The notes under the pieces are model-generated. The model ran no database searches. It saw nothing but the letters and a program-made list of their open reading frames with translations, and was not told where the DNA came from. The position numbers and the translations under genes are program-made. 61,323 nt of DNA, from positions 1 to 61,323 of the IMG/VR virus record IMGVR_UViG_3300023174_007841; one strand, 5' to 3'. Source of the DNA: a virus. Positions 3,614 through 61,323 of the stretch are shown here, one piece after another; the stretch's first letter is position 1, and every line of letters begins with the position of its first letter.

Positions 3614-4234
3614 TTAAATTTTGCATTCTTGATATTCAGGAGTTTTTGTTTTATTGTTATGATGCATTCTATAACGATAGAATGGAATTTTTAGGTGATG
3701 TATTTGGTAGTATTCGCCTAATCTTTTTCGAAGTTCTTCTTCTTCCCTGTGTCTCATGGAATCGTTATATCCTCCCGACTGCAAGAAAAGATCTTTTCTA
3801 TACATGATGCCGCATGACACAGGCTCTTTTTCTGCATACTTTCTTTCGATGATATTTTCGCGATTATCAACTAGGTGATAATCACAAGATACACAAAACG
3901 CGTCGTGATTAGACTCCAAATAAGTTTTCATGAAATAACACATGTCTGAAGACACGTAATCGTCTGCGTCGACTCGAATGATAAATTGACCCCTAGCGTT
4001 TTTTATCCCCAAATTAGCTGCTACAGCGACGCCTGCGTTTTGGGGTGTCGAAATTACTTTTACGTCGGGTTCAAATATCTTAACCATCTCCAAAGAATTA
4101 TCAGTGGAGCAATCGTCGACGACGATCACTTCATGATTGACGTTTTTTTGATTTAAAACGCTTCTTAAACAGCGTTGAAGATAAGAACCGTAGTTATAGT
4201 TAGTGACGATTATTGAAACATCAGGTGCGTTCAT
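3614..4234 (-). CDS. Family 2 glycosyltransferase
   Basis: This 206-residue GT-A fold enzyme would transfer a sugar from a nucleotide-sugar donor. Seen: VSIIVTNYNYGSYLQRCLRS, EVIVVDDCSTDNS, and the metal-binding DxD-type motif RVDADDYV. The C-terminal half has RHREEEELRKRL in the acceptor-side position (the ED-type catalytic region). It is at the short end for GT2 proteins but has all N-terminal donor-binding elements. It overlaps the upstream glycosyltransferase gene by 14 bases, so the two are probably co-translated. Donor and acceptor cannot be deduced. Confidence 0.85.
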   Translation of the reverse strand: MNAPDVSIIVTNYNYGSYLQRCLRSVLNQKNVNHEVIVVDDCSTDNSLEMVKIFEPDVKVISTPQNAGVAVAANLGIKNARGQFIIRVDADDYVSSDMCYFMKTYLESNHDAFCVSCDYHLVDNRENIIERKYAEKEPVSCGIMYRKDLFLQSGGYNDSMRHREEEELRKRLGEYYQIHHLKIPFYRYRMHHNNKTKTPEYQECKI

Positions 4235-27089: not shown

Positions 27090-27169
27090 GAGGTCGTCTA
27101 ACTTATAGACAACCCTATAAAATCAACGTTTATTTGTTTAAGGATGTAGTATAATTGTTCGTAGGTTAC

Positions 27170-45574: not shown

Positions 45575-45907
45575 ATGAAAATTACAATCAATCAGCTCCG
45601 CAGAATTATCAAAGAAGAAGTCGAGAATGTCATGCAGGGTTCATCTCCTGTAACGATTGAGGTCGATTACGGTGAGTTCCCAGGTCAACCAAAGATGGGT
45701 GACGTTACCAATATTATCTTAAAACAACAAAGATCCTATGGTATACCTGCAATAGGCTTAACCAAAGCTGTAGTTGTCGAGGAGATGGGCACGGGCGGCG
45801 ATAATCCCATCGTTCAGCTTACGTTTGATTCGATGGACAACGCTGCAGCCTGGTGGGAAGCTTCTGGATACGCAGACATGGATGATATCGAAAACGCTAT
45901 TGTCTAA
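45575..45907 (+). CDS. Small protein with the recurrent N-terminal helix tag
   Basis: This 110-residue protein has the tag MKITINQLRRIIKEEVENV at its start, also present in four other proteins in the window (see findings). The remainder (VTIEVDYGEFPGQPKMGDV; FDSMDNAAAWWEASG) is a small mixed alpha/beta fold, not recognised. A strong terminator follows 30 bases after the stop. It is possibly a capsid-internal protein if the tag is a targeting sequence. Confidence 0.6.
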   Translation: MKITINQLRRIIKEEVENVMQGSSPVTIEVDYGEFPGQPKMGDVTNIILKQQRSYGIPAIGLTKAVVVEEMGTGGDNPIVQLTFDSMDNAAAWWEASGYADMDDIENAIV

Positions 45908-45937
45908 GATATCTGAGTTACTCGATCCTCCGATCAA

Positions 45938-45962
45938 AAACGCCTCCACTTCGGAGGCGTTT
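45938..45962 (+). terminator. Strong rho-independent terminator
   Basis: AAACGCCTCC (45938-45947) and GGAGGCGTTT (45953-45962) form a 10-bp perfect stem with the loop ACTTC, then CTCATTT. It ends the unit with the tagged small gene at 45575 and lies just before the primase promoter region. It is A-rich on the upstream side, so it may also act on the other strand, where no gene is present. Confidence 0.88.
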
Positions 45963-45969
45963 CTCATTT

Positions 45970-45999
45970 GTGAACAGTTGAACGCGTGTGTGGTACGGT
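45970..45999 (+). promoter_or_regulatory. Candidate leaderless promoter for the primase gene
   Basis: GTGAAC (45970-45975) and TACGGT (45994-45999) are spaced by 18 bases; the GTG start at 46006 lies 6 bases after the -10 box. Boxes are weaker than in the other members of this group, but the geometry is the same. It begins right after the terminator at 45938-45962. Confidence 0.4.
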
Positions 46000-46005
46000 T
46001 GTACC

Positions 46006-46986
46006 GTGGCGTTACATAGTGTCTCTGATAAAGTTTCTTTTTTTGAATCCATTTTTGGCAGAGGAAGGTTGTCTGCCAACGGAATCAACTTTGATGTCAG
46101 GTGTCCGATCTGCGCCCCGACAGATCCGACTAAAAAGAAGTTGGCCATCCGTACAACAGATGACGCAAATCACTGTTGGGCATGTGGATGGAAGGCCAGA
46201 AGCCTTGCTCCTTTAATTCGTAAATATGGAACGCAGGAACACCTTAATTTATATCGGGAATTAACTGGACAAGGCGGCAAGTCGGATCTAGTGACCGCTG
46301 ATGTCGATAACGTCCAGAAGATAGAGTTACCTAAGGATTTCAGGTTGTTGACCCTGGCAAACGAGATGGACCCTGATGTCAAGGCTGCTTGGAGATATGT
46401 CTATTCTCGAGGATTGTCCGATAGAGATGCCTGGTATTTTAAGTTTGGAATTTCCGATGAACCTCGCTGGAAACGTCGAGTCATAATGCCGTCCTTCGAT
46501 TGCAACGGAGAATTGAACTACTTTGCTGCTCGAGCGGTTGACAATGGTCGCAAACCCAAATACGATAATCCCGATGTCGACAAAAATCCCGTCGTCTTTA
46601 ACGAGATTAACATAGATTGGTCGAAGAGATTAGTGCTATGCGAGGGACCATTCGATCTTGTCAAGTGTCCCGAAAATTCAACAGCATTATTAGGTTCGGA
46701 TCTCGATGAACGCCACGAAGTTCTTAACAAGATTCTCTTATATAATACACCGGTAGCTCTTGCTCTAGATGGCGACATGTGGTACAAGAAGACGCCTAAG
46801 ATAGTTAAGAAACTTCAAGAATATAACGTCGACGTCCTCGTTGTTGATGTTAGACCGTGGGGAGATCCAGGTAGCATGTCCAAAGCAGAATTTGAAAAAG
46901 CTTTGTCTGAAGCTATTGTCTTTGACTGGGGCGATAGGTTTTCTAATAAATTAGAAAAAGCAATGACGACTAGCTTTAGAATCTAA
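46006..46986 (+). CDS. DnaG-type DNA primase
   Basis: The GTG at 46006 is favoured (another at 45988), giving 326 residues. A zinc-binding domain has Cys33, Cys36, Cys57 and Cys60 (CPICAP...HCWACGW). The central part (WYFKFGIS, RVIMPSFDCNGELNYFAAR) and the Toprim motifs LVLCEGPFDLVK (catalytic Glu) and ALALDGDMW (DxD) follow. It makes RNA primers for lagging-strand synthesis. No helicase domain is attached, unlike T7 gp4. It is like T4 gp61 in size. Confidence 0.9.
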   Translation: MALHSVSDKVSFFESIFGRGRLSANGINFDVRCPICAPTDPTKKKLAIRTTDDANHCWACGWKARSLAPLIRKYGTQEHLNLYRELTGQGGKSDLVTADVDNVQKIELPKDFRLLTLANEMDPDVKAAWRYVYSRGLSDRDAWYFKFGISDEPRWKRRVIMPSFDCNGELNYFAARAVDNGRKPKYDNPDVDKNPVVFNEINIDWSKRLVLCEGPFDLVKCPENSTALLGSDLDERHEVLNKILLYNTPVALALDGDMWYKKTPKIVKKLQEYNVDVLVVDVRPWGDPGSMSKAEFEKALSEAIVFDWGDRFSNKLEKAMTTSFRI

Positions 46987-46998
46987 TAATTAAAATCG

Positions 46999-48039
46999 AT
47001 GAAACAAAAAGTCGCTATATCAGAACGCCAACTTCGCAAAATAATTAGAGAAGAATTGGCAAGACAATATCTCGTTCAGGAAGGTCTTCTCGATTCGATC
47101 AAAAAGCCTTTTCAAAAACTTTCCGAAAAGGCTAAACAGATCGTGTCAAAAAAAGTGGACGAAGTCTTGGAAAAGATTTCTGCGGCACTTGAAGGCGTGC
47201 AAAAACCAGAAGGTCTTGACGAATTTTTGAAGAAATTTGAACAGACCGAAGGAGGCGTGGACATTAAAAATTTAGCTTTAGAGGTTGGTTTAGAAGATGC
47301 TGTTTCTGCTTCTGCGTCTAAAGAAAAAATCGTCGCGACCGAAGGTACGTTTATTGTCGTGAGAGAATCGTTCGACGCCATCCCCGCATCGGCAGAAGAC
47401 TTGATTTCTTCTTTCGCTCTAATCGAAGGATATTATCAAAAACGCGCTCTTAAAAATTCTGAAATTTTAAACGAAGCACTGTTGACGGAAGCGGTTGGAT
47501 TAACTGCTCTCGTAGGTGTCTGGTGGGCAGCCGTAAAAGCTGCCGTCGGTTTTTTAGGCGGACTTTCGTTAGCCTGTAAGTTGTTGGCGGCCATCTTTGA
47601 AAAGGCACTTAACAAACCCGATATAGCTAAAAAATTAAAACATTATGAGCACGTTTTCCATGAACTAGAAGAGAAAGCTCTAAGAGTCCTTGTCTATCCT
47701 GCTCCCGTATCTTACGCTGCCTACCTCACTGCGTCAGGACTAAAGAAAATGTCTGCGTCGAACAAAAAACCTAAAAAGCTTTTGTCTTACGAAGAATTCA
47801 ATTCGCCAGAAAACAAAGACGAAAAAGTAGCGGCAGAAAAATTAATTCACACTGCCTTGTTGCTGGCCATTATTTTTGAGGCTGTTTCTCACATAGGTCA
47901 CGCCATCAAAGAACTCGCTGAAAATACTTCCCACGCGCTCGAGTCTATTGGACACTCAGCAGTAGAAATTGGTAAAGAGGCTTCGGCGCTACCCAAGGCG
48001 GCACGAGTAGCCGTCACCGCCGGCGCGCAAATTACCTGA
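46999..48039 (+). CDS. Membrane-segment protein with the N-terminal helix tag
   Basis: This 346-residue protein begins KQKVAISERQLRKIIREELA, the recurrent tag. Residues about 20-75 are an amphipathic coiled-coil (KPFQKLSEKAKQIVSKKVD). Two hydrophobic stretches, VGLTALVGVWWAAVKAAVGF...SLACKLLAAIF (about 167-203) and LIHTALLLAIIFEAVSHIG (about 281-300), could span or insert into a membrane. It has no signal peptide. A virion-packaged protein delivered to the host membrane would fit; this is an inference. No Shine-Dalgarno site is apparent. Confidence 0.6.
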   Translation: MKQKVAISERQLRKIIREELARQYLVQEGLLDSIKKPFQKLSEKAKQIVSKKVDEVLEKISAALEGVQKPEGLDEFLKKFEQTEGGVDIKNLALEVGLEDAVSASASKEKIVATEGTFIVVRESFDAIPASAEDLISSFALIEGYYQKRALKNSEILNEALLTEAVGLTALVGVWWAAVKAAVGFLGGLSLACKLLAAIFEKALNKPDIAKKLKHYEHVFHELEEKALRVLVYPAPVSYAAYLTASGLKKMSASNKKPKKLLSYEEFNSPENKDEKVAAEKLIHTALLLAIIFEAVSHIGHAIKELAENTSHALESIGHSAVEIGKEASALPKAARVAVTAGAQIT

Positions 48040-48051
48040 TATTCTAATTTG

Positions 48052-48079
48052 TTGAACATATTTGTAATTTGGGTATAAA
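48052..48079 (+). promoter_or_regulatory. Candidate short-leader promoter for the Mre11-Rad50 gene
   Basis: TTGAAC (48052-48057) and TATAAA (48074-48079) are spaced by 16 bases. The ATG follows 9 bases after the -10 box, leaving at most a 3-base leader. The same region contains the hairpin at 48069-48089. Confidence 0.5.
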
Positions 48080-48089
48080 GTTTACCCAA
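48069..48089 (+). repeat. 7-bp inverted repeat ending at the Mre11-Rad50 start codon
   Basis: TTGGGTA (48069-48075) and TACCCAA (48083-48089) are perfect reverse complements around a 7-base loop. The right arm ends at the A of the ATG. In a read-through transcript it would block initiation; as DNA it could be an operator overlapping the -10 box. Confidence 0.55.
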
Positions 48090-51000
48090 TGGTTAAAATT
48101 GCGCATACTGCCGACATCCATTGGCGCGGCTTGAGTCGACATGACGAATATCGTTATGTTTTCGAAGCCTTCAACAAGGATTGTAAGAAGAACAAAGTAG
48201 ATCATATCTTCGTCGGCGGCGACATATTTCATACCAAGACCACTGGCATTTCACCAGAATATATCGATCAGCTAACGTGGTGGTTAGAATCTATGGCAAA
48301 AATTGCCAGTGTTCATTTGACATTAGGTAACCACGATGGTAATTTGGTCAACCTGTCTCGACAAGACGCGGTGTCTCCTATCGTACAGGCGCTGAATAAT
48401 CCAAAGATCCATCTTTACAAGAAGAGTGGAGTATACGAATTCCACCCAGGGTATAACTGGTGCGTTTATTCTCTTTTCGACGAAGAAGGTTGGGGTGAAG
48501 TAAGACCTGAACCAGGAAAAGTAAATATTGCATGCTATCATGGCCCCGTTCAAGGTTCTGTGACAGAAGTTGGTTGGGAAATGGAAGGTATGAATCTAGA
48601 ATTCTTCAAAGATTATCCCTATGTTTTTCTTGGTGATATCCATCAGATGCAGCATTTAGGTTATCGCGAATGCTTAGTTGGAAAGAAAAAACCATGGATT
48701 TCTTATCCAGGAACGCCACTCCAGCAGAACTACGCAGAAGAGTTAGACCATGGTTATTTGTTATGGGATATCGATGATAAACAATCTTGGGATGTTTTGT
48801 TTAAAAAGTTACCGAATCCAAAACCCTATGTTACCATTCCGTGGAATGGTTCTATCGATAACTTAATTTCTTCTGCTTCTAAACACCCAGATGGTACAAG
48901 GTTTCGAATTAGGTCGTCAGACGCCTTGGGACAAAAAGACTTTAGTTTAATTAGTGAATCTTTGAAGAGCGTAAAGTCGGCCACTGAGGTCACATTCAAG
49001 TCTGATTTTATTGTCGATAAGTCGGTGGTCAAAACGAACACCTCGACGCTCGAGAAGGCCGACTTGAGAAATTCCGATGTCCTTTTCAAGTTGATTAAAG
49101 ATTATTACGCTGGTACACAGATAACAGAAGAACAGTGGAAGATCGTTTTTGAACAAGTAAAATCTTGTCTTTCTACTGTCATTTCTACAGAGGAAACGAC
49201 TCGTAACTCTAAGTGGTCTCTTCGATATCTGGGATTCGACAATATGTTTGCCTATGGCGAAGGCAATATGATTAACTTCGATAAGCTTAATGGTATCGTC
49301 GGAGTATTCGGTCCTAATAGAGTCGGTAAGTCTTCTATCGTCGGTACTTTGATGTATTCGTTGTTCAATGCGACGGACCGTGGTCCCGTAAAGAATATTC
49401 ACATTTGTAACATTCGTAAGCCATATTGCTCGTCGAAGGCCATCATTAATCATGATGGTACCGATTACGTTATCGAGCGCCAAACCACCAAAAGTGAAAA
49501 CAAAAAAGGAGTGTTAAACGCCTCTACTGCTTTGAACGTTTTTAAGATTAGAGAAGACGGTGAGGCAGAAGATCTTGCTGGAGAACAACGCGCTGATACT
49601 GAAAAGGTGATTCGCGCCCTTATCGGTAGTCAAGAAGATTTCATGATGACGTCGCTGGCTGCGCAAGGCGAAACGAATCAATTTATATCGCAAGGCTCTA
49701 CGAGACGCCGGGCAGTGTTGTCTAGATTTTTGGATCTTGATATATTCGACAAGATGCACGAATTGTCGAATAAAGAACTTGCATCTTATAAGTCACAATT
49801 AAAAAACTACCCCGATAGAGATTGGGCGTTGTTGATGCAACAAAATCAAAGCGCTATCGTTGATTCCGACAAGCAGATCATCGAATTACACCAGTTGATA
49901 AAAGACAAGCAACAGACTATTTCCCAACTGCAGATTGAATTGTCTAAACACAGGGGTACACTCGTCACCAAATCTCAAGTTGAGACATTCGCGAAGCAAC
50001 TTGTTGCTCTTGAAAAACAACACGAACTCCACGCGGTTAATATTTCCAGTCTGGAGTCTGAGATAACTAACAGTAACGAAAAACTGAAAACTATAGCAAC
50101 TATCAAATCAGAAAACGATATATCGCAATTGCGATCTCAATTAGCTGCGCTTAAAAATCTCGAAGCTTCTTTGACGTCTTTGAGATTTCTTTACGAGAAA
50201 GAAAATACTCTTTTTGAACAACAAAAAAAATCTCTTAAAATTCTTGATGAAGTGCCCTGCGGCGATGACTATCCTACGTGTAAATTCATTAAAGACGCTC
50301 ACGTTAATAAGTCAAAATTAATCGACCAACAAGGCAAAGTAGAACACGCACAAAAGAAACTAGAAGAAGTAAAGAAATCTTTCGAAGAACTCGGAAAAGA
50401 AAATTTGGTTGGTCGTTTAGAAAAAATGGAGAAATTGTTGTCTTTGGAGACAAAGCTGTTACTAGACATCTCTAAGAAAGAAATTGAACTTGAAAAATCT
50501 AGGACCGTTCACTATTCGCGAGAATCAGAACTAAAAAGTTCTAGAGAAAAACTTAAGGCGCTTGAGGAAGCATTAAAAAATGACGATAATGCAGAAGCAG
50601 TTTCTATTAAGCTAAATATAGAAGATATTTCTAAGGCTATAGATGCGTTGACAACAGACAAACTTGATGTGGCTACGCGCAAAGGAAAGCTTTCTGCTAA
50701 TCTTGAAAAGATAAGCGAAGAAAAAATCGCTAAGGACATTCTTTTGGAGAAGATGAAGGTACATGAGTTGGTTACCGTAGCATTTTCTAAGAAGGGCTTG
50801 CCACTAATCATTACAAAGTCGCAATTACCCGTTATCAACGCAGAGATAGCCAAGATTCTTCATGGCATCGTAGATTTTACTATCGAACTTGAAAATGACG
50901 AGAACACCGATTCTTCTGAAATTTATATCAACTATGGCGATTCCCGACGAGTTGTAGAACTGTGTTCGGGTATGGAGAAGACCATCGCCTCTCTAGCTAT

Positions 51001-51247
51001 TCGAGTCGCGATGGTCAACGTTTCTTCTTTACCCAAGCCGAATATCTTCATCGTTGACGAGGGATTTGGAACGCTAGATGATGCCGCCGTTGAAGCCTGT
51101 AATAGATTGCTGGTTTCTTTGAAGAAATATTTTAAGGTAATTTTGATAATCACTCATGTCGACGGCGTCAAGGACGTAGTCGATCACGTTTTGGAGATTA
51201 TGAAGAGCGAAAAAGATTCCAAGGTTATTTTTGGAGTAGATTCATGA
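48089..51247 (+). CDS. Single-chain Mre11-Rad50 (gp47-gp46 type) recombination nuclease
   Basis: This 1052-residue protein joins two proteins that are separate in T4 and bacteria. Residues 1-345 are Mre11/SbcD phosphoesterase: HTADIHWRGL (D, H), VGGDIFHTK (GD), TLGNHDGN (GNHD), CYHGPVQG and LGDIHQMQ. From about 390, Rad50/SbcC: Walker A FGPNRVGKSS near 405-414, long coiled coils (about 560-930) around a hook CGDDYPTC (residues 724-731, C-x6-C instead of the usual CxxC), signature ELCSGMEKTIASL near 956 and Walker B IFIVDEGFGTLD near 986. It would resect DNA ends for recombination-dependent replication. It overlaps the next gene by 4 bases. Confidence 0.95.
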   Translation: MVKIAHTADIHWRGLSRHDEYRYVFEAFNKDCKKNKVDHIFVGGDIFHTKTTGISPEYIDQLTWWLESMAKIASVHLTLGNHDGNLVNLSRQDAVSPIVQALNNPKIHLYKKSGVYEFHPGYNWCVYSLFDEEGWGEVRPEPGKVNIACYHGPVQGSVTEVGWEMEGMNLEFFKDYPYVFLGDIHQMQHLGYRECLVGKKKPWISYPGTPLQQNYAEELDHGYLLWDIDDKQSWDVLFKKLPNPKPYVTIPWNGSIDNLISSASKHPDGTRFRIRSSDALGQKDFSLISESLKSVKSATEVTFKSDFIVDKSVVKTNTSTLEKADLRNSDVLFKLIKDYYAGTQITEEQWKIVFEQVKSCLSTVISTEETTRNSKWSLRYLGFDNMFAYGEGNMINFDKLNGIVGVFGPNRVGKSSIVGTLMYSLFNATDRGPVKNIHICNIRKPYCSSKAIINHDGTDYVIERQTTKSENKKGVLNASTALNVFKIREDGEAEDLAGEQRADTEKVIRALIGSQEDFMMTSLAAQGETNQFISQGSTRRRAVLSRFLDLDIFDKMHELSNKELASYKSQLKNYPDRDWALLMQQNQSAIVDSDKQIIELHQLIKDKQQTISQLQIELSKHRGTLVTKSQVETFAKQLVALEKQHELHAVNISSLESEITNSNEKLKTIATIKSENDISQLRSQLAALKNLEASLTSLRFLYEKENTLFEQQKKSLKILDEVPCGDDYPTCKFIKDAHVNKSKLIDQQGKVEHAQKKLEEVKKSFEELGKENLVGRLEKMEKLLSLETKLLLDISKKEIELEKSRTVHYSRESELKSSREKLKALEEALKNDDNAEAVSIKLNIEDISKAIDALTTDKLDVATRKGKLSANLEKISEEKIAKDILLEKMKVHELVTVAFSKKGLPLIITKSQLPVINAEIAKILHGIVDFTIELENDENTDSSEIYINYGDSRRVVELCSGMEKTIASLAIRVAMVNVSSLPKPNIFIVDEGFGTLDDAAVEACNRLLVSLKKYFKVILIITHVDGVKDVVDHVLEIMKSEKDSKVIFGVDS

Positions 51248-51561
51248 AGCACGATTGGCAACCTTATCCACGAGATAGAAAAATTTGTTATAAAGAAAAC
51301 TACGCAATAATAGTTCCTTCTTCTTATGACGACCACGAGAGAAGAAATATGCCTCTGTTTTGCGAAGTTTGTAGTATCCGTTTTGGTCACAAAGAAGACG
51401 AGATCACATATAAGAAATTCGGTTGTTGCACGGCCTGTGCGGACACTTGGGCTTATTCTAATAAAGAAAAGTGGGAAGCAGGCTGGCGACCAACTTCCGA
51501 TGTCGTAAAAAATGTGACTGCGAGAAGATCTTTTGTCGATCAAAACATCGTCTTAGAATAA
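51244..51561 (+). CDS. Small zinc-finger-like protein
   Basis: This 105-residue protein starts with an ATGA overlap after the nuclease gene. FCEVCSIRFGH and GCCTACADTW form two CxxC pairs, typical of a zinc ribbon with about 26 residues between pairs. The rest is basic and aromatic-rich (KWEAGWRP). It is unrecognised; a nucleic-acid-binding partner of the upstream nuclease is plausible from its location only. Confidence 0.6.
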   Translation: MKHDWQPYPRDRKICYKENYAIIVPSSYDDHERRNMPLFCEVCSIRFGHKEDEITYKKFGCCTACADTWAYSNKEKWEAGWRPTSDVVKNVTARRSFVDQNIVLE

Positions 51562-51569
51562 ACGTTGTA

Positions 51570-51576
51570 TATTTAG
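51570..51576 (+). promoter_or_regulatory. TATTTAG box, candidate late promoter
   Basis: TATTTAG lies 13 bases before the ATG at 51590. The same heptamer occurs before the genes at 53629 (53601-53607) and 59643 (59614-59620), all in the packaging/prohead block. It resembles the T4 late box TATAAATA in position and composition, but it is only three cases. Confidence 0.35.
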
Positions 51577-51589
51577 GACTGGAGATACT

Positions 51590-51967
51590 ATGCCTAAAAT
51601 CGACTATAACGCCCTTGGACAAGCTATAGACACGACGTGGGGAAGAACGTCGACTCCCAAGACCGCTTCTTATTCTGTTAAGTTTACTCTTGCTGGTGAT
51701 GTTTTGACTGCTTCTTATCAAGTAGTCGTTAACTTCGCTTCTGAGAAAGAGATGATTACGATGAACAGGATGTACGAAGAAGAATCTAGCGAAGTGATTC
51801 AAGCTGTCCTCAAGAACATTAAGGCTATCTATAAAGACTTGTCTGGTTCCACATTGTCAGTGAAGGAACACTCCACGAATACGTCAGTCGAAATTATTGG
51901 ATTTAACGTGCACAATCCAAAAAGGACTGCCTATTTTCGCAGGAAGACGGCTTTTGAATTAGTCTGA
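51590..51967 (+). CDS. Hypothetical protein before terminase
   Basis: This 125-residue protein has a TGGAG ribosome site. It is mixed alpha/beta (SYSVKFTLAGDVLTASYQVV; EVIQAVLKNIKAIYKDL) with no recognised motif. It overlaps the terminase ATG by one base (TGATG). Its place just before the large terminase might suggest a small terminase, but it lacks a visible HTH, so I do not assign that. Confidence 0.6.
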   Translation: MPKIDYNALGQAIDTTWGRTSTPKTASYSVKFTLAGDVLTASYQVVVNFASEKEMITMNRMYEEESSEVIQAVLKNIKAIYKDLSGSTLSVKEHSTNTSVEIIGFNVHNPKRTAYFRRKTAFELV

Positions 51968-53580
51968 TGCAACAACCCCTAACTAGAAACGACCAAATAA
52001 AGGAGATCGTCCGCTGCGGCAAGGATCCGATCTACTTTATGAAGAATTATGTAAAGATCCAGCACACTGTGCGAGGTCTTATACCATTTGAAACCTATGA
52101 TTTTCAAGATGACTGTGTTAAACAATTTGAAACCAATCGTTTCAACATTGTCCTTAAATCACGCCAGCTAGGTTTGTCGACTGTAACAGCTGCATATGCC
52201 GTCTGGTTCGCAATCTTCAAAAAGGATAAAAACGTCCTCGTCATCGCTACCAAATTGTCTACGGCGATGAACTTCATCAAGAAGGTGAGGATTATGTTAG
52301 ACGGACTTCCCAAGTGGTTGTTGCTCACAAAGTTTGAACCAACGAAGCAGGCTATCAGGTTTGACAATGGTTCACAGATTAACGCGATTCCAACATCTCC
52401 GGACGCGGGTCGTTCCGAGGCTTTGTCGCTGCTCATCGTTGACGAAGCAGCGTTCATTAGAGACTTTGAGGATATTTGGACCGGTCTCTATCCCACCTTG
52501 TCGACCGGTGGCAACGCCGTAATTATTTCAACGCCTAACGGTGTTGGTGGACAATACTATCGTCTCTGGATGGATGGCGAAACCAAACAAAACGAGTTCA
52601 ATACCATTAAACTACCATGGTGGGTCCATCCCGAGCACGACGAAGATTGGTTTACTAGAGAGACTAAGAACCTACCGAAAAGAAAGGTGGCGCAAGAATT
52701 TCTTTGCGACTTTATTTCTTCTGGTGATACTTTCTTACAACCTACCGAGCTCGAAGCGATTAGAGAAGCCATTCGTCCGCCACTCGAGAAAACAGGCCCG
52801 CAGTCTGCTGTATGGATTTGGAGAAAACCCGAAGCAGGCAAAAAATATATCATGGCTGCTGACGTCGCAAGAGGCGATTCAGGAGACTTTTCTACTTTTC
52901 ACGTAGTTGATAACTCGTCATGTGAAGTAGTCGCAGAATATATGGGCAAAATACCGCCAGACAAACTGGCTGATATATTGTTCGAATATGGCAAAATGTA
53001 TAATGAAGCCTTAATATGCCCCGAGCAAAACACTTTTGGATATTTTACATGTGTTAAACTTCGAGATGATGGCTATCCTCGATTGTATTATCAAGGTTCT
53101 TCAGGAGATCCATTCGAGTTTAGACCGACAGACTCCAATGCTGTTCCTGGGTTTTCCACGCAAACAAAAACCAGGTCTCAAATATTGGCAAAATTAGAGG
53201 AATTAGCCCGCAACTCTATTCTTAAGGTTTATTCTCAGCGCCTCTATGATCAACTCCAGGCCTTCGTATGGAATGGGTCTAAAGCGCAAGCAGCCAAGGA
53301 CGCTCACGATGATCTAATAATAAGCCTGGCGATCGCCGCCTGGTTGGTCGCCGGAGATTCAGGCGTTAATGAGCAAGCCACAGCTTTAGCCATGGCGATG
53401 CTCAAGGCTACTAAGGTTGAGAGAAACAACAATATGCCTGGTGACATAAATTCTGCTCAACCCCTTGTGAATCCAAACATTAGGGGACTAAATCCAAATT
53501 CTCGAGACGTATTAAAACCGAAAGATCCCTCTCAGGTTCGTCATGTAGATATTTCGGATTTTTCTTGGCTGTACCGTTAA
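51967..53580 (+). CDS. Terminase large subunit (gp17-like)
   Basis: This 537-residue packaging motor has an ATPase half: Walker A-like LKSRQLGLST near residues 62-71 and Walker B LLIVDEAAF near 155-163, with STPNGVGG as coupling motif. Its RuvC-like nuclease half has IMAADVARGDSGDF near 295-308, ICPEQNTFG and AHDDLIISLAIAAW near 446. It translocates DNA into the prohead and cuts the concatemer. Length is a little short of T4 gp17 (610). Its C-terminal tail is Pro/Asn-rich. It precedes the tagged gene and portal, as in T4-like order. Confidence 0.95.
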   Translation: MQQPLTRNDQIKEIVRCGKDPIYFMKNYVKIQHTVRGLIPFETYDFQDDCVKQFETNRFNIVLKSRQLGLSTVTAAYAVWFAIFKKDKNVLVIATKLSTAMNFIKKVRIMLDGLPKWLLLTKFEPTKQAIRFDNGSQINAIPTSPDAGRSEALSLLIVDEAAFIRDFEDIWTGLYPTLSTGGNAVIISTPNGVGGQYYRLWMDGETKQNEFNTIKLPWWVHPEHDEDWFTRETKNLPKRKVAQEFLCDFISSGDTFLQPTELEAIREAIRPPLEKTGPQSAVWIWRKPEAGKKYIMAADVARGDSGDFSTFHVVDNSSCEVVAEYMGKIPPDKLADILFEYGKMYNEALICPEQNTFGYFTCVKLRDDGYPRLYYQGSSGDPFEFRPTDSNAVPGFSTQTKTRSQILAKLEELARNSILKVYSQRLYDQLQAFVWNGSKAQAAKDAHDDLIISLAIAAWLVAGDSGVNEQATALAMAMLKATKVERNNNMPGDINSAQPLVNPNIRGLNPNSRDVLKPKDPSQVRHVDISDFSWLYR

Positions 53581-53600
53581 TTAATTTTTGAAGTAATATC

Positions 53601-53607
53601 TATTTAG
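53601..53607 (+). promoter_or_regulatory. TATTTAG box, candidate late promoter
   Basis: This is the second of three TATTTAG boxes; it lies 21 bases before the ATG at 53629, followed by GATAGAGGA, which contains a possible ribosome site. Confidence 0.35.
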
Positions 53608-53628
53608 TGATAGAGGACTAAGACTAAT

Positions 53629-54006
53629 ATGCCGAAGCTTACGATTTCACGTTTAAGAAAAATTATCGCAGAAGAAGTATCACTTTTGAGAGAAGGTGAA
53701 AAAGAAGACCAAGCCGCTTCGATGGCGCAAAATGCGAGTAAACTTCTTAAGGCAATAGAGTCGTTTAAGTCAACCGCATCATCGAAAGCTAAGTCTAGCG
53801 CAGATGCTTCGAATGCGACTCTTGAAAAGCACCTTTTAGAGGCTGAAAAAATGCTAAAAAGGATCGTCGCCTCTCCATTGAACTACGTAGATGGTCCTAA
53901 GCAGCCCATTGCGGGTACTCCTTCCGCAGTCGTGCCGGATCAATCCCTCGCCGCCGCCGCGACGACTAAAAAAGTTTCTGTAAAGCCGGCCGTGGAAAAG
54001 AAGTAA
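53629..54006 (+). CDS. Small prohead-region protein with the N-terminal helix tag
   Basis: This 125-residue protein starts LTISRLRKIIAEEVSLLREG, carrying the tag with a possible I-A-E cleavage site. It is followed by a helical, Lys/Ala/Ser-rich middle (ASSKAKSSADASNATLEKHLLEA) and a Pro/Ala/Val tail. It lies between terminase and portal, where T4 has tail sheath and tube genes. A core or internal head protein is likely. Confidence 0.62.
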   Translation: MPKLTISRLRKIIAEEVSLLREGEKEDQAASMAQNASKLLKAIESFKSTASSKAKSSADASNATLEKHLLEAEKMLKRIVASPLNYVDGPKQPIAGTPSAVVPDQSLAAAATTKKVSVKPAVEKK

Positions 54007-54086
54007 AAGAAGTATACTAAAATTTTTTAGAAGTTACTATCTGACGACGAAAGAGCCTTCTCCACGATTGGAGTGGCAAAACAACG

Positions 54087-57000
54087 ATGGCAAAAGAAAA
54101 AGATCAAACATTATTCCAGCGTCTTTCTAAGATTTTTAAGAGCGGTCCAATTGTCAAGCGCAAGATAAGAAATCTCGATACGACAATCGCCGTCGCTGAC
54201 AAAACGAAGTCTTCTGGTGCTTTACTATTTCAGAAGTCGTTGGCTCCAACTTACGCAACTATCACAGCTAACGCGTACAATCTCTCTGAACGCTTGATGA
54301 GGTATCAAGATTTTCAAGAGATGGAATATTGCCTACATAAGGACACAAAGATCGCGGTGCCAGGTGGATACAAGACTATTGAAGAGCTTTCTTTGGAGTG
54401 TGAGGCGGATTCTAACAGAACTTTCGTAGTCTATGCATACGATCACAATCTAGGTAGGATCGTTCCAGCGATGGGAAAGCAAGCTCGACAGACTCGAGTT
54501 GACCATGCTTACACGGTTACTTTTGATAACGAACAAAAGATCACTGGAACACCAAATCACCGCCTCATGAAGCGAGATGGTACTTTCTGCAAGATAGAAG
54601 ACCTAAAGTCAGGCGACGCAATGATGCCCTTCTATCGTAGAGACTTATTCAATGGTTGCAAAGAAGAAGGGGAGGGCTATCGCTGGATATACACAATGGA
54701 CCGACGTTCGAATATGAACGGTTGGGTCGCTGAGCACAGGCTCATCGGTGAGATGATGAAGGGCTCCGAACTCGCCGCCGATGAGGTCGTGCATCACGTT
54801 AACTTTACGAAGCACGATAATAGACCAGAAAACTTACGCGTCATGAAGGACCACGATCACAGAAGCCTTCACACGAAGATTATCAACGGGGCGAAGTGGT
54901 CCGATCAAAACTCAGAATGGATCGAGAGGTTCAAGACTAATCATTCTAAGTTCATGTCAGAGAACAATCCAGCCGAGAGAAAAGATATCACATTCGGCAG
55001 GATACTCGAAGTTTCTGAAAGAGTTAACTTCAACTCAAAAAAGCTTTGCGAAGTTCTTGACACAGACCCGAATGTAATTAAACGCAAACTACGAAAGCAC
55101 GGATATCAAGATTTCCAAACATTCGCAAAGGCGTACAACCCAGATTGGTGCAATGTAGGTTGGGATAACCAAGGTAAGAATAATCCTCGATATAACCACT
55201 CAGTTACCTTCGATAGAATATGTTCTGCTTTTTCTAGAGGCGTGTCGAAGAAGCAGCTTGCAGTTTCTTTAGACACTACAACTACCGTGCTTGACAATCG
55301 TTTAAAGGAGCGAGGGTACAAGAACTATACTGAGTTTTCTCAGACCTATGACAACCTCAAGGTTGTCTCTGTCGAATATCACGGAGTGATTCCCCTCTAC
55401 GACTTGACCGTAGATGGGTACAAAAACTTTGCGACAGATACCGTAATTTCTCATAATACGCCAGAAATCGCCGCCACGATGGACATCTACGCCGATGAAA
55501 CCGTAGCGCAAGACGACAAGGGTCGAGTGCTTCACATCTATTCAGACAACGAAAAGATCAAAGAGATTTTAGAAGATCTCTTCTATAACACGCTGAATGT
55601 CGAGTTCAATCTTCGTTCCTGGGCCCGTAACCTCGTTAAGTATGGAGATTTTTTTCTCTATAATGACGTTTCTCCTCAATATGGCGTCATCAATGCGTTT
55701 CCTATACCAGTAAATGAGATTGAGCGTGAAGAGAACTACGACCCGAATGACCCCTTCGCCGTACGATATCGTTGGGTAACATTAGGAAATAGGACCCTAG
55801 AGAACTGGGAAGTAACCCATTTTCGTCTACTCGGCAACGACATGTTCTTGCCTTATGGCTCATCAATCATTGAGGCCGCTCGTCGCATTTGGCGTCAATT
55901 AATCCTTATCGAGGATGCTATGCTGGTTTATCGAGTCGTCCGCGCTCCGGAGCGTCGCGTTTTCTATATTGATGTTGCCAATATTCCTCCTGAAAACGTT
56001 CCGATGTACGTCGAAGAGCAGAGAAAAAATCTTCGTACAAACCAGGTTGTAGATAGAGCAACGGGTCGTCTTGATCTTCGTTATGCTCCTCTTTCTATCG
56101 AAGACGATTATTTTATTCCAGTCCGTGGCGGAGAATCTGGAACGAGGATCGACACGCTTGCGGGTGGTCAAAATGCTGCCGCTGTCGAGGACGTTGCCTA
56201 TATTCAAAAAAAGCTTTTTGCCGCGCTAAAGATTCCTAGAGCTTATCTCGGCTACGATGAGATGCTTTCTTCTAAAGCGACGCTTGCCCAAGAAGACATC
56301 AGATTTTCTCGTACGATTAACGTAATTCAGAAAGTCCTTATCTCAGAACTCAATAAGCTAGCAATAATTCATCTGTATTCTAATGGTTTTGATACAGAGG
56401 AATTACAGAATTTTACACTGCGTCTCTCCAATCCTTCGACAGTTGCTCAACAACAAAAACTGGAAATCTGGCGATCTAAATTTGAGATCGCGGGGTCGAT
56501 TCCTGAGGGAATGGGCAGTAAAGAGTTCGCACGCAAGATGATTTGGGGCCTGACAGACGAACAGATCGAGCAGATTGATGAGCAACGTTATCAAGAGAAA
56601 CTTGTTGATCAAGTCATCGAGGAAGCCAAACCTGATGAGGGCACCTCTGGCGAGGAAACTGGTGGAGAAGAGACTGGCGGTGAGGAAACTGGTGGAGAAG
56701 AGACTGGCAGTGAGGAAACTGGTGGAGAAGAGGAAGCAGGCGGAGAAGAGGCTGGTGAAGATCTTTTCGCGGGCGATGATGTCGAAGAGAAGGAGCCCGA
56801 AACTGAGCTTCTGATGACTGGCGATGCGGATGATTTAATGCCGACTCTTTTTGAAAAAGATAAATTACCCGTAAAAGCAAAGTCTCAATTGAAAAAAGCC
56901 TTATACGATCGAAGCCGTAGAAAAACTCGTCAAGATCACATGGTAGATTTTAAAAAAATGACGGATTATGATGCCGAAGGCATGGGCATGAAAAATGTCT

Positions 57001-57239
57001 TTGGTACTGACTACATTAAAGACGCAGTTAGTAATCCCCTTAAGAACGAGTCGGTATTAAATGATAGCGCATACGTCAGACCTAATTTGCCGTTGGCTCT
57101 ACAGTCTACGCTTCAAAAGATGTCGACAGCCCTGCAGATGACGCAACATAAAAATTCGAGTCTTTTGTCCGAGGGAGAAAGTTCGCAGCTTTCATCGATA
57201 GCAGACGAAAACAACTTATTTATCATAGACGAAGATTGA
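54087..57239 (+). CDS. Portal protein precursor (gp20-like) containing an intein
   Basis: The 1050-residue precursor has an N-extein of 81 residues (ending YQDFQEMEY), an intein (54330-55457) and a C-extein starting TPEIAATMDIYADETV. The spliced 674-residue portal would match T4 gp20 features: EEILEDLFYNTL-type clip, VTHFRLLGNDMFLPYGSSII, APERRVFYIDVANIPP, KIPRAYLGYDE and SSKATLAQEDIRFSRTI. The portal ring is the DNA entry pore. The C-terminal third has an acidic Glu/Gly repeat (56651-56732), unusual for the family, and a cleavage-like end. Gene order with terminase and protease supports this call. Confidence 0.95.
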   Translation: MAKEKDQTLFQRLSKIFKSGPIVKRKIRNLDTTIAVADKTKSSGALLFQKSLAPTYATITANAYNLSERLMRYQDFQEMEYCLHKDTKIAVPGGYKTIEELSLECEADSNRTFVVYAYDHNLGRIVPAMGKQARQTRVDHAYTVTFDNEQKITGTPNHRLMKRDGTFCKIEDLKSGDAMMPFYRRDLFNGCKEEGEGYRWIYTMDRRSNMNGWVAEHRLIGEMMKGSELAADEVVHHVNFTKHDNRPENLRVMKDHDHRSLHTKIINGAKWSDQNSEWIERFKTNHSKFMSENNPAERKDITFGRILEVSERVNFNSKKLCEVLDTDPNVIKRKLRKHGYQDFQTFAKAYNPDWCNVGWDNQGKNNPRYNHSVTFDRICSAFSRGVSKKQLAVSLDTTTTVLDNRLKERGYKNYTEFSQTYDNLKVVSVEYHGVIPLYDLTVDGYKNFATDTVISHNTPEIAATMDIYADETVAQDDKGRVLHIYSDNEKIKEILEDLFYNTLNVEFNLRSWARNLVKYGDFFLYNDVSPQYGVINAFPIPVNEIEREENYDPNDPFAVRYRWVTLGNRTLENWEVTHFRLLGNDMFLPYGSSIIEAARRIWRQLILIEDAMLVYRVVRAPERRVFYIDVANIPPENVPMYVEEQRKNLRTNQVVDRATGRLDLRYAPLSIEDDYFIPVRGGESGTRIDTLAGGQNAAAVEDVAYIQKKLFAALKIPRAYLGYDEMLSSKATLAQEDIRFSRTINVIQKVLISELNKLAIIHLYSNGFDTEELQNFTLRLSNPSTVAQQQKLEIWRSKFEIAGSIPEGMGSKEFARKMIWGLTDEQIEQIDEQRYQEKLVDQVIEEAKPDEGTSGEETGGEETGGEETGGEETGSEETGGEEEAGGEEAGEDLFAGDDVEEKEPETELLMTGDADDLMPTLFEKDKLPVKAKSQLKKALYDRSRRKTRQDHMVDFKKMTDYDAEGMGMKNVFGTDYIKDAVSNPLKNESVLNDSAYVRPNLPLALQSTLQKMSTALQMTQHKNSSLLSEGESSQLSSIADENNLFIIDED
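54330..55457 (+). other. Intein with HNH endonuclease inside the portal gene
   Basis: These 376 codons begin with Cys (CLHKDTKIAVPGG, block A) and end with HN (YKNFATDTVISHN, blocks F-G), with Thr as the +1 residue. GTPNHRLMKRDG is block B (TxxH). The homing part has HHVNFTKHDNRPENLRVM, an HNH motif, and two similar HTH-like repeats (residues about 225-275 and 300-345 of the intein; KLCEVLDTDPNVIKRKLRKHGY and KQLAVSLDTTTTVLDNRLK). All splicing residues seem intact, so it is likely active. It lies at a highly conserved portal site. Confidence 0.93.
56651..56732 (+). repeat. 30-bp tandem repeat in the portal C-terminal region
   Basis: A 30-base unit containing GAGGAAACTGGTGGAGAAGA occurs about 2.7 times with few changes, encoding repeats of Gly-Glu-Glu-Thr-Gly. 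It lies in a disordered acidic region of the portal. Confidence 0.9.
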
Positions 57240-57250
57240 AAGGTCGACAG

Positions 57251-58120
57251 ATGTCAAGATCCCACAATAAAAAACGCAACACGGCTTTACTATACGAGTT
57301 TTTAGTGAGAACAATTTCTAGTGCCCTGGTCGAAGGAGATAAGAAGAGGTCGTCGACTGCTCTTCGAATTCTTCGTAGATACTATAAGCCTGGAACACAT
57401 CTCTACAAGGAGTTCAGGCTCTTTAATGCTCTTGTAAAAACAACAGTTAGTTCTGATGCGGTCGTATCTTCAATTTTATCTGAGGCTCGCGCCGCCGCTG
57501 GAAATACCGAAGTCGATGCTCTTGATCGAGAAAAATCTTTATTGATTAGAAGCATCAACCATATGATTAAGGATGAAAATTTCTATGATCAACCGATCGC
57601 AGAATATCGACTTTATGCAACGATTCAAACTCTTTTAAATGAGTGGAGAAAACCTGCAGGTTCTGCCGACATTGCTTCTCTCGCTGGTTACGAAAATCAA
57701 CTTAGGGAATGGTTGTTGATCGAAAAGAAAAAAGAGGATCATGTTCTCATCGACGAGACGCCTGGTACAACGCGTCTCCTCATGAAAGTAATGATGAAGA
57801 AGTTGAACGAAAAATATTCTTTGACTCTTAACGAAGAGCAGCGAGAAATTATAAAAGCTTATGCTTTCTCCACGGCGAACGAAGATCAAACGACGATCAA
57901 GAAGAAGCTCGAAGATATTAGAGACAATCTATTAGAATCTATCGATCAATATGCGGAGCAGAAAAAGGAAGATAGATTTCTTGCGGATAAAATGCAAGAT
58001 GCTAAATCTAAGATAATGTCAGAGTCTCTTGAGATAGTCGACGATTCTACCGTATCTAAGTTTATGTTGTACTCTACGCTATGTCACGAGTTAACTACCG
58101 ACGAAGGAGAAAATTCATGA
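57251..58120 (+). CDS. Hypothetical helical protein between portal and prohead protease
   Basis: The ATG at 57251 (AAAGG upstream) gives 289 residues. The start SRSHNKKRNTALLYEFLV is basic; the rest is helical (ALRILRRYYKPGTHLYKEF; TTIKKKLEDIRDNLLESID). I do not recognise a family. In T4 the corresponding place holds the small core genes 67 and 68, so it may be a head-core or connector protein. Its stop overlaps the protease start (ATGA). Confidence 0.65.
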   Translation: MSRSHNKKRNTALLYEFLVRTISSALVEGDKKRSSTALRILRRYYKPGTHLYKEFRLFNALVKTTVSSDAVVSSILSEARAAAGNTEVDALDREKSLLIRSINHMIKDENFYDQPIAEYRLYATIQTLLNEWRKPAGSADIASLAGYENQLREWLLIEKKKEDHVLIDETPGTTRLLMKVMMKKLNEKYSLTLNEEQREIIKAYAFSTANEDQTTIKKKLEDIRDNLLESIDQYAEQKKEDRFLADKMQDAKSKIMSESLEIVDDSTVSKFMLYSTLCHELTTDEGENS

Positions 58121-58728
58121 AAGACTTACGCCTTTTAAATTCATATGAAATTTTTGATTACACGCCCGAGATGATCAAAGAATCTCGCGAAAAGAATGGC
58201 GGTAAGGTAATGATGAAGGGTATTCTGCAAAAGTCGGATACACTCAATCAAAATGGTCGTATTTATCCCGAGCACGTCCTCGAGCGCGAGGTTAGAAACT
58301 ATCAAAAATTCATAGTAGAGAATCGCGCTCTTGGAGAACTAGATCATCCTGATTCTTCGGTTGTTAATCTTAAGAATGTTTCTCACATTATAAGAGAAGC
58401 CCATCTCGATAGAGGCGTAGTGTATGGAACAGTCGAAATTTTGGACACGCCTTCTGGAAAGATCTTGCAATCGCTCGTTGAGTCCGGCGTAAAACTCGGC
58501 ATTTCTTCTCGTGGAGTGGGCTCGACAAAAAAACAAGGAGATTATCATGTCGTACAAGATGATTTCCAGCTTATTTGTTGGGACTATGTTTCCGAGCCAT
58601 CTACGCCTGGTGCCTTTATGTTGCCAGAGGGTCGTAGAATCACCTCCGCTGAACTTCAAAAAGTCTTTAATAAATCTGACAGAATTGACAGAATACTAAA
58701 TGATATAATTTCTTTTGGAGGAAAGTGA
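58117..58728 (+). CDS. Prohead core protease (gp21-like, peptidase U9)
   Basis: The ATG at 58117, 7 bases after GAAGGAG, gives 203 residues. GRIYPEHVLEREV, GELDHPDSS (His77) and VKLGISSRGVGS (Ser130 or Ser131) are the herpes-protease-like motifs of T4 gp21. The enzyme matures the prohead by cutting scaffold and capsid proteins after Glu in (L/I)-x-E contexts in T4. If this enzyme has similar specificity, it would cut the tagged proteins listed in the findings. Confidence 0.93.
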   Translation: MKDLRLLNSYEIFDYTPEMIKESREKNGGKVMMKGILQKSDTLNQNGRIYPEHVLEREVRNYQKFIVENRALGELDHPDSSVVNLKNVSHIIREAHLDRGVVYGTVEILDTPSGKILQSLVESGVKLGISSRGVGSTKKQGDYHVVQDDFQLICWDYVSEPSTPGAFMLPEGRRITSAELQKVFNKSDRIDRILNDIISFGGK

Positions 58729-58732
58729 TGAT

Positions 58733-59149
58733 ATGGCGCTGAATAATCCTCTTACCGGTATAAATTCTACTTCAGAATTTCAATTATCTGGTTTACCTTG
58801 GGTCGTATCCGGCACGACAGTATCGAATGTTGTTACCAGATATCAATTGCCTAAAGTAACGAAAAGTATTACCATACATAACTTGGAACCTTCTTCAAAT
58901 AAAAAAATTCGTATAGGATTCACAGAAAATGGTGTGAACGGTGTCGCTGGTAATTATTTTTTTGCATTTGATTCTGGCGCTCTTGTCACGTTAGATGCAA
59001 GGGTTAAAGAATTTTATATTCGTGCTGATACTTTTTCTGATGAGCACGATTACAGCATTTATTGTTCTTTAACGACAATAGCATCAAATATGATGCCCAT
59101 CTTAACTGGATCAACTGGTGGTGAAACACTTTGGAACGGAGTTGGTTGA
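58733..59149 (+). CDS. Small beta-rich protein, possible head decoration protein
   Basis: The ATG at 58733 (14 bases after GGAGG) gives 138 residues. The pattern SITIHNLEPSSNKKIRIGFT then FDSGALVTLDARVKEFYIRAD suggests a single beta-sandwich, similar to small surface or decoration proteins in many phage heads. It lies between protease and tagged core genes. Function is a guess from fold pattern and place. Confidence 0.55.
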   Translation: MALNNPLTGINSTSEFQLSGLPWVVSGTTVSNVVTRYQLPKVTKSITIHNLEPSSNKKIRIGFTENGVNGVAGNYFFAFDSGALVTLDARVKEFYIRADTFSDEHDYSIYCSLTTIASNMMPILTGSTGGETLWNGVG

Positions 59150-59150
59150 T

Positions 59151-59579
59151 ATGCCTGTTACAAAGCAGCAGCTAAAATTAATTGTAAAAGAATGTTTATT
59201 AGAAATTTTGTCAGAAGGAATATCAAATTCGACAGGAAATATTGTTGAATCTAAGAAGAAAGATATTCTAAAATTAAATTCGTCGCCTCATCCTTCTACA
59301 ATCATTAGACAAAATGCAAATAATGTTAGAGTTCAGTCGACCGCGCTAAAAGAAGCGATAAAAAGAGAAGCAGGCGGCAACGATATAATGGCTTCTATTT
59401 TGGCTGACACAGCTGAAAAAACCTTACCGACGATGCTTGAAAACGATCGTAGCAAGATTATGCCACCAGGCGGCGCTGCCGAGCGCGTAGTCGCTTCCCA
59501 TGATCCACAAGAGTTATTCGGAGAAGAAGCTGCTTCGAAGTGGGCAAATTTAGCATTTATGGGAATATCGAAGAAATAG
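59151..59579 (+). CDS. Small prohead-region protein with a variant helix tag
   Basis: Starting at the ATG at 59151 gives 142 residues. It begins PVTKQQLKLIVKECLLEILS, a variant of the tag (V-K-E in place of I-x-E E). The rest has helical stretches (AIKREAGGNDIMASILADTAE) and an ELFGEEAASKWANLAF end. It follows the previous gene after one base. It is probably a head-core or internal protein. Confidence 0.6.
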   Translation: MPVTKQQLKLIVKECLLEILSEGISNSTGNIVESKKKDILKLNSSPHPSTIIRQNANNVRVQSTALKEAIKREAGGNDIMASILADTAEKTLPTMLENDRSKIMPPGGAAERVVASHDPQELFGEEAASKWANLAFMGISKK

Positions 59580-59613
59580 CGTTTAAATTTTTCTTATTTT
59601 TATTTCATCTAGA

Positions 59614-59620
59614 TATTTAG
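59614..59620 (+). promoter_or_regulatory. TATTTAG box, candidate late promoter
   Basis: This is the third TATTTAG box, 22 bases before the ATG at 59643. A CGGAGAA ribosome site lies between. Confidence 0.35.
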
Positions 59621-59642
59621 CAATGTTGTACGGAGAACATAT

Positions 59643-59882
59643 ATGAAACTTACGAGCCAATTACTCAAGAAGATCATCGCAGAAGAAGTTGCAAAGTTCG
59701 GCGACATGGGCGACCCTGAGGCCGTCGAGGCCGATGAACTTGATGCAGATGAGCACGGTTCAGACAAGGCGCTTGAAAAGAAGATCGATTATATCAAGGC
59801 GCTTAAGATTGAAGAGTCTCGTCTTCGTGCGCGCCTCAAGAAGGTCGCCGAAACCCGCACCCGCGTGGCTCGCAGCCTCTGA
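59643..59882 (+). CDS. Small core-like protein with helix tag
   Basis: This 79-residue protein begins MKLTSQLLKKIIAEEVAKFG, a perfect copy of the tag. An acidic linker (DPEAVEADELDADEHG) is followed by a coiled-coil (ALKIEESRLRARLKKVAETR). Size and place resemble T4 gp67/gp68-type prohead core proteins, but no homology can be claimed from sequence alone. A strong ribosome site (CGGAGAA) precedes it. Confidence 0.65.
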   Translation: MKLTSQLLKKIIAEEVAKFGDMGDPEAVEADELDADEHGSDKALEKKIDYIKALKIEESRLRARLKKVAETRTRVARSL

Positions 59883-60447: not shown

Positions 60448-61323
60448 ATGTCAAAGCAATTGTACGAAGAGGCTTTAGCCGACGTGAAGAAGCTAAAGGA
60501 GATAGCAGAAGACAACGCCAAGAAGGCTTTGATCGAAGCAGTTTCGCCTAGAATTAAAGATTTAATCGAGGCAGAACTTCTCCGCGAGGCCGGAGAAATG
60601 GAAGATGATCTTTTGCTCGATGAAGAACCACCTGCGCCGGACGACGCCGCAGCTCCTGTCCCGACCGCTCTTGATCCAGCAGTTGTCCCTGCGATGTCGC
60701 CTCCTGACGAGGAAGGAAAAGTTACTCTCGACCTCGACGCCCTGAGCGTACAACCGTCTGGTGCAGAATTTGAGTTAAGCAACGAATCTATTAAACTGAT
60801 CAATCCGCTCGTCAATAAGCTTAATTCTGCAACAGCTCTTCGGGTAGAGTCCAGACTCTTCCAACTAAACGAAGCGGTACAAAGGTTTTTGGGAGCTAGC
60901 ACTTCTTTAAAGAAGACTGCAAGTTACCAACTTAAAATTTTGGAGATGGTCTCTGAAATTGAAAAGACTTATGAATTTTTGCAGGAATCTGCAAAAAACC
61001 TTCAAGACAAAGGAGTCTACGAAGGAAAGTTAGAAGATCTATATAAGAAACTCAACAAGCTCGTGGAGCAATACAACATGAAAAAGAACTTGAAGTCATT
61101 AACTGAGGCAGAAATAACTCTTAAGCTCACAAACGTTCCCGATGAAGTCAAGGATAATCTTGACGACCTCGGCGTCGACCTCGTGGCCGATGAAGCTGGC
61201 GAAGAGGGCGGAGCCGAAGGTGATGAGTCAGATCTCGATCTCGGCGGTGACGACGAGGGCTCCGAGGGCGGCGATGAGGCAGAAGATTCCGACGAGGGTG
61301 ACGATGAACTCGACCTCGGTGGA
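60448..61323 (+). CDS. Prohead scaffold/core-like acidic protein (runs off the right edge)
   Basis: The frame is open from an ATG (AGAGAGG upstream) for 292 codons to the edge. It is helical at both ends (QLYEEALADVKKLKEIAED; DLYKKLNKLVEQYNMKKNL), with an acidic Asp/Glu/Gly-rich end (about residue 250 onward). Motifs such as LIEAE, LREAGE and IAED offer protease sites. After gp21-like protease this is where T4 has scaffold gp22, whose size (269 residues) and acidic helical nature are similar. The major capsid gene would be expected just outside the window. Confidence 0.7.
   Translation, partial: MSKQLYEEALADVKKLKEIAEDNAKKALIEAVSPRIKDLIEAELLREAGEMEDDLLLDEEPPAPDDAAAPVPTALDPAVVPAMSPPDEEGKVTLDLDALSVQPSGAEFELSNESIKLINPLVNKLNSATALRVESRLFQLNEAVQRFLGASTSLKKTASYQLKILEMVSEIEKTYEFLQESAKNLQDKGVYEGKLEDLYKKLNKLVEQYNMKKNLKSLTEAEITLKLTNVPDEVKDNLDDLGVDLVADEAGEEGGAEGDESDLDLGGDDEGSEGGDEAEDSDEGDDELDLGG

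Follow-up and report, generated by a model that had tools for sequence, protein, structure and literature searches.

We analyzed the whole viral record IMGVR_UViG_3300023174_007841, a stretch of 61,323 bases from an aquatic T4-like phage (hereafter the window) that is probably a genome fragment, and focused on a short N-terminal sequence, the tag, shared by five of the proteins that it encodes. The earlier note on this DNA had given five tag strings; all of them are present exactly, and each starts an open reading frame (ORF):

45575–45907, + strand: tagged protein A, 110 amino acids (aa); tag string QLRRIIKEEVENV, with the tag MKITINQLRRIIKEEVENV at 45575–45631
46999–48039, + strand: tagged protein B, 346 aa, with long hydrophobic helices, upstream of the terminase gene; tag string QLRKIIREELARQ
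53629–54006, + strand: tagged protein C, 125 aa, between the terminase and portal genes; tag string RLRKIIAEEVSLL
59151–59579, + strand: tagged protein D, 142 aa, encoded after the protease gene and read from the ATG at 59151 (the longest version of the ORF starts at a GTG at 59118); tag string QLKLIVKECLLEI
59643–59882, + strand: tagged protein E, 79 aa, acidic, represented by a 21-sequence alignment; tag string LLKKIIAEEVAKF

The pattern search near N-termini that the earlier note had proposed was run on the window in six frames, and the strict tag motif returned these five matches and no others, all of them N-terminal. The 13-residue string begins at residue 7 or 8, or at residue 11 in the 46999 protein. 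Beyond the tag the proteins do differ, as had been stated, since their bodies fall into five separate blastp clusters. The tag itself is a basic amphipathic helix with the consensus M-K/R-I-T-x-x-Q-L-R-x-I-I-K/R-E-E.

The tag is widespread outside the window. A terminase search gathered 80 related viral loci, in which the same families are tagged N-terminally and occupy the same positions (C lies between the terminase and portal genes, D and E follow the protease gene, and B lies upstream of the terminase gene); further protein families are tagged as well. On seven whole related contigs, a tag profile gave about 48 matches of at least 8.5 bits, all N-terminal, and one internal match at 7.8 bits; among the controls, shuffled ORFs gave a single match at 13.1 bits and reversed ORFs a single match at 9.6 bits, with nothing else above 5.5 bits. 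Given that this profile was built partly from tags of the same seven contigs, the pattern-only and held-out tests described below are the stronger evidence. A degenerate DNA pattern of the tag detected at least 120 stretches in IMG/VR, with up to 7 tagged genes in 7.6 kb, and only 6 stretches, on four contigs, in 257 Gb of bacterial and archaeal genomes. Contig NHDW01000006.1 (306 kb; three of our loci), assigned to the metagenome-assembled genome (MAG) Methylococcaceae bacterium TMED69, carries tag arrays together with genes for an S77 protease and a gp23 capsid protein; because it encodes both of these proteins, we regard it as a contig of a jumbo phage that was binned with a bacterial MAG, and every match listed for the TMED69 bin sits on it. 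In a Halobacteriovorax MAG, the protease and capsid genes are on another contig of the bin (108.9 kb vs 101.4 kb).

Altogether, about 500 distinct tagged proteins were found in 244 loci, nearly all tagged at the N-terminus, with a median length of 112 aa. Large T4-like contigs carry 5–43 tagged genes each, and the many variable tagged proteins are often encoded in tandem arrays. The earlier note had considered what would follow if the tag were common in related phages; it is indeed present on hundreds of proteins across uncultivated large phages. Searching GenBank phages with tag consensuses by tblastn returned only the uncultured LR756508.1 (484 kb), which has an S77 match and about a dozen tags. 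Four tag-like starts (MKKSQLRQIIKEA, MKKSQIVKAVQEV, MKLDLLKKLIKEA and MKKSELVKLIKEE) occur in Flavobacterium phage immuto, the closest phage in cultivation that we found. At locus L177, the protein encoded at 3080–3745 (− strand) is tagged close to its N-terminus and has another tag-like stretch, KISNNTLNKIIQEELRNVLLEKGSK, at the C-terminal end; either a signal at that end or an effect of assembly or overlap may explain it. Our literature search found no description of the tag, subscription papers lying outside that search.

The tag is followed by a second conserved element. Past residue 30, the bodies of the tagged proteins form 276 blastp clusters, including 219 singletons; because blastp alone separated the clusters, distant relatives may be counted twice. 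When one protein per cluster was aligned on the tag, conservation extended through IIKEE, reappeared as a hydrophobic-x-Glu element about eight residues further on, and then fell to background level, with the Glu peaking at +10/+11 counted from the first Ile of IIKEE. Tag alignment A6, with composed sequences, was set aside as biased towards L-x-E. Because the first profile had included the tail, the site test was repeated on proteins picked by the DNA pattern alone, with the pattern ending at EE, which yielded 124 unrelated bodies. (L/I/V/M/F)-x-E occurred at residues 18–26 in 88 of the 124, versus 14, 18 and 21 in the next three windows of residues. At the same place -x-D was depleted (8 versus 23–32 in control windows), and neither -x-Q nor -x-K rose. 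The P1 residue peaked at residue 22, and P1′ was mostly A, G, Q or S. In a held-out set of 51 bodies without a match to earlier sets, 25 had the site, versus 6, 5 and 3, and in nine others the motif lay at residue 27, several of them reading LIRE|S (the bar marks the predicted cut). In locus L309 (contig G018), tagged arrays often have a spacer five residues longer, which likewise gives LIRE|S and shifts P1 from residue 22 to residue 27.

Three of the five window proteins have the downstream site, with predicted cuts at VQE|G after residue 28 in protein B (after 47082), at LRE|G after residue 22 in protein C (after 53694) and at LSE|G after residue 22 in protein D (after 59216). E28-G29 is invariant in an alignment of 14 protein B sequences, as are E18, I19, L20, E22 and G23 in a 27-sequence alignment of protein D. 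The protein C family has 51 distinct members and keeps its position in relatives. An AlphaFold2 (AF2) model of protein D shows a confident helix at residues 5–25, covering LSE|G at 20–23, followed by a low-confidence linker; the AF2 model of protein B was poor (mean predicted local distance difference test score, pLDDT, 42.6) and was not used. Protein A has IIKE|E (residue 14) as its sole I-x-E site, and relatives' proteins with its tag have LRE|M or LRE|A downstream. The window copy of protein E has no downstream L-x-E. Judging from these sequence patterns, the separate (L/I/V)-x-E about eight residues downstream, rather than IIKE alone, is probably the main cut site.

The tagged genes of the window lie among genes for head assembly and DNA packaging:

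51967–53580, + strand: T4-like large terminase (39.5% identity with Flavobacterium phage immuto, 41% with Microcystis phage Mel-JY01)
54087–57239, + strand: T4-like portal of the gp20 family with an intein and an HNH domain (PF07230, 2.7e-71; PF14890, 1.5e-11; PF13392, 1.8e-7)
58117–58728, + strand: gp21-type prohead protease, Peptidase_S77 (Pfam PF03420, E=2e-26; PHROG 207, E=4e-50)
60448–61323, + strand: putative scaffold or prohead core protein, running off the window end

The identification of the 58117 gene as a gp21-like protease, made in the earlier note, was borne out by Pfam PF03420 and PHROG 207, and the protein passed the S77 family profile at 93.2 bits against a curated cut-off of 27. 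Among tag-bearing contigs or bins of 90 kb or more, 19 of 19 encode an S77 protease; three tag-bearing records of 64–83 kb, probably fragments, gave no S77 match. A gp23-type capsid protein was present in all 21 tag-bearing contigs or bins examined, and in the phage of the window its gene lies past the window end. In 14 of 15 further head modules that we fetched, tagged protein D is encoded in the protease–capsid region, the fifteenth having a counterpart with a different tag, MKLTEAQLKAIVAEEVQAAIEEG; protein E is present in about half of them. Proteins D and E, and probably C, are conserved head-module components.

The motif of the downstream site recurs at the predicted maturation site of the capsid protein in the same phages. 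In an alignment of 12 gp23-type sequences chosen by ORF length, [LIV][LV]xE was found at the gp23 cut position in all 12. The propeptide end in 20 gp23-type sequences from tag-bearing contigs and immuto reads ENQAxQ(V/L)L(K/R)E|(S/A/N/T) or a close variant; because these 20 were collected with a pattern containing [LIV][LIV]xE, the alignment of 12 is the test. In the T4 record sequences, gp23 has FLTE|A at the equivalent place and gp24 begins MAKINELLRE|S, and the layout of gp24 LLRE|S and of IPI ITE|A is comparable to that of the tag site. T4 gp21 cuts after L/I-x-E, and Asp at P1 of the T4 IPIII tag blocks processing while targeting is retained (PMC9026906).

The bodies behind the tag are mostly unrecognizable. 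Among 148 of them, Pfam detected 13 families with one member each, and PHROGs, PADLOC and NCBIfam scans detected few domains and one marginal defence match. Because so few bodies have recognizable domains, "effector" is a guess for most tagged proteins. The domains that were recognized (alignment A2) include YkuD L,D-transpeptidase, AAA_33/polynucleotide kinase, HAD_SAK_1, GNAT and tRNA-ligase CPDase, a mixture recalling RNA repair and host modification. A tentative reading of some tagged bodies as ADP-ribosyltransferases, based on FYHGT and WFHGA motifs, was unsupported by Pfam. Among GenBank phages, protein B had no convincing match, and megablast of the region found none.

Other features of the window are noted briefly. 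The 60448 protein has several L/I-x-E sites within its first 60 residues (LYE, IAE, LIE, LIE, LRE and LDE), and its putative role as scaffold is suggested by position and composition. The portal intein with its HNH domain sits between MEY and TPEI; in 62 readable loci, the window counted, Cys is found at +1 in 23 and the site is uninterrupted in 39, so the intein looks polymorphic. A PIN-PhoH fusion protein is encoded at 27155–28591 (PIN_4, 3e-31; PhoH, 3e-47).

Several known systems resemble the tag in part. The capsid-targeting sequence (CTS) of T4 IPI, IPII and IPIII is likewise N-terminal, common to otherwise unrelated proteins and ended by L/I-x-E for gp21 (PMC9026906, PMC12373910), and its hydrophobic spacing is that of the tag (Y4..F7 I8.E10 in the CTS, L8..I11 I12.E14 in the tag). 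The T4 CTS differs in being 10 residues long in IPII and IPIII, whereas the tag covers about 22 residues with a separate downstream site, and T4 has three internal proteins (IPs) as against 5–43 tagged genes per contig. Like D and E, T4 gp68 and gp67 are small proteins coded beside protease and portal and are close in size (79 aa for E and 80 for gp67, 142 aa for D and 141 for gp68), but their gene order differs; homology of D and E with gp68 and gp67 was ruled out by profile-profile comparison (probability at most 1%). In phiKZ and SPN3US, according to the part of the published account on which we draw (PMC5694885), a gp21-like protease removes head propeptides after x-x-E at multiple redundant sites, and the paralogues gp53 and gp54 have identical N-termini in common; the same part gives an A/S-x-E motif and several propeptides of more than 100 residues, which differ from our case, and describes no tag common to hundreds of proteins. 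In phage P1, the N-terminal 30 residues of DarB suffice to carry a reporter into the capsid; the Dar proteins have no consensus among them, and they are likened to the tagged proteins by description, not by sequence (PMC9024508).

We consider it very probable that the tag is a removable N-terminal capsid-targeting prosequence working like that of T4. As the head assembles, the basic amphipathic helix would dock the new protein on the prohead core; the S77 (gp21-like) protease would then cut after the Glu of (L/I/V)-x-E, mostly at residues 21–22 and possibly also after IIxE, which would free the body inside the head. The variable tagged proteins would most likely be virion cargo ejected with the DNA. 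On the sequence evidence, the tag most likely marks proteins that are packed in the head, trimmed by the phage protease and injected into the host. We prefer the prosequence because it accounts for all of these observations at once, whereas none of the other models that we considered accounts for both the Glu-specific site and the match with the capsid protein. The earlier note had proposed a T4-like capsid-targeting prosequence acting with the 58117 protease; the comparative evidence strongly reinforces this proposal, although its assignment of the cleavage site needs to be changed.

Several observations weigh against the prosequence. About 30% of the tagged families (36 of 124) lack (L/I/V/M/F)-x-E at residues 18–26, as do two of the five window proteins (A at 45575 and E at 59643). 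The bodies are mostly acidic, with a median net charge of −5, and in this they differ from the T4 internal proteins, which are basic. The recognized bodies (polynucleotide kinase, GNAT, YkuD and HAD) could also be ordinary cytosolic proteins. Because tag-bearing contigs may be largely one clade, the co-occurrence of tag and protease is not independent evidence, and virion proteomics for these uncultivated phages were not found. Finally, the tag profile scored at most 2.2 bits on T4 head proteins. Given that layout, protease and motif agree with the T4 CTS and sequence similarity does not, we describe the tag as working like a CTS rather than as a member of that family.

The best of the alternatives, although unlikely, is that the tag targets but is not processed, or is processed at IIKE|E alone, with the downstream L-x-E a mere helix end. 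Cleavage at IKE, IRE, IAE and VKE was what the earlier note had proposed, and the Glu of IIxE is 99% conserved, with a residue spacing equal to that of T4 IPIII (FIAE|A), which is cut after residue 10; we retain IIKE as a possible second site. In 83% of families, however, a cut at IIxE would leave Glu as P1′ rather than A, G or S. The downstream site has a Glu-specific signal of its own and matches the capsid site, and is the better supported.

Slightly less likely still, the tag could be an unremoved docking helix for another phage hub, such as a polymerase, clamp or membrane complex, with L-x-E part of the binding surface. Strong conservation of a basic amphipathic helix, the several families without an L-x-E site and bodies that are enzymes usable in the cytosol would all fit such a helix, but it fails to predict three observations: that P1, at a fixed distance, is Glu-specific and depleted in Asp, with conservation lost beyond it; that the motif is shared with the capsid maturation site; and that every head module examined contains tagged genes.

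Shared ancestry, with the tag surviving as a remnant of common descent among paralogues that have diverged, is very improbable: tandem arrays of small genes similar in size are in its favour and blastp can miss distant homology, but 276 body clusters have no detectable similarity behind a nearly unchanged tag, and differing domains (YkuD, AAA_33, GNAT and HAD) follow the same tag. Least credible is a DNA- or RNA-level element, such as a translation start enhancer or recombination hot spot, that codes a helix by chance. In its favour, codons are skewed at some positions (ACA at T4, GAA at E14) and the gene arrays that hold the tags are plausible places for recombination. Against it, invariant residues are encoded by varying synonymous codons for Leu, Arg and Ile (at shared residues, the same-codon fraction is 0.51 between loci and 0.65 within), and selection therefore acts on the protein sequence.

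If the tag is a capsid-targeting prosequence, it extends a principle already established for the T-even internal proteins, which were found as injected proteins by the same logic and several of which inhibit host restriction enzymes (PMC12373910). New here are this tag, its host group and its scale, together with the second element, (L/I/V)-x-E downstream of IIKEE. We lean towards the broader view that a single packaging tag, universal and cleavable, serves uncultivated aquatic T4-like and jumbo phages; fused to hundreds of unrelated, mostly orphan bodies, it would load tens of different small proteins per particle and provide a sequence-addressable injected proteome far above that of T4, an open platform for counter-defence and takeover genes. 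The tag would also be a packaging signal to try for protein delivery into aquatic bacteria. If our interpretation is true, sequence alone would reveal which proteins a large group of uncultivated phages inject, and the hundreds of tagged families would be candidates for virion cargo and, possibly, for early proteins of anti-defence or takeover.
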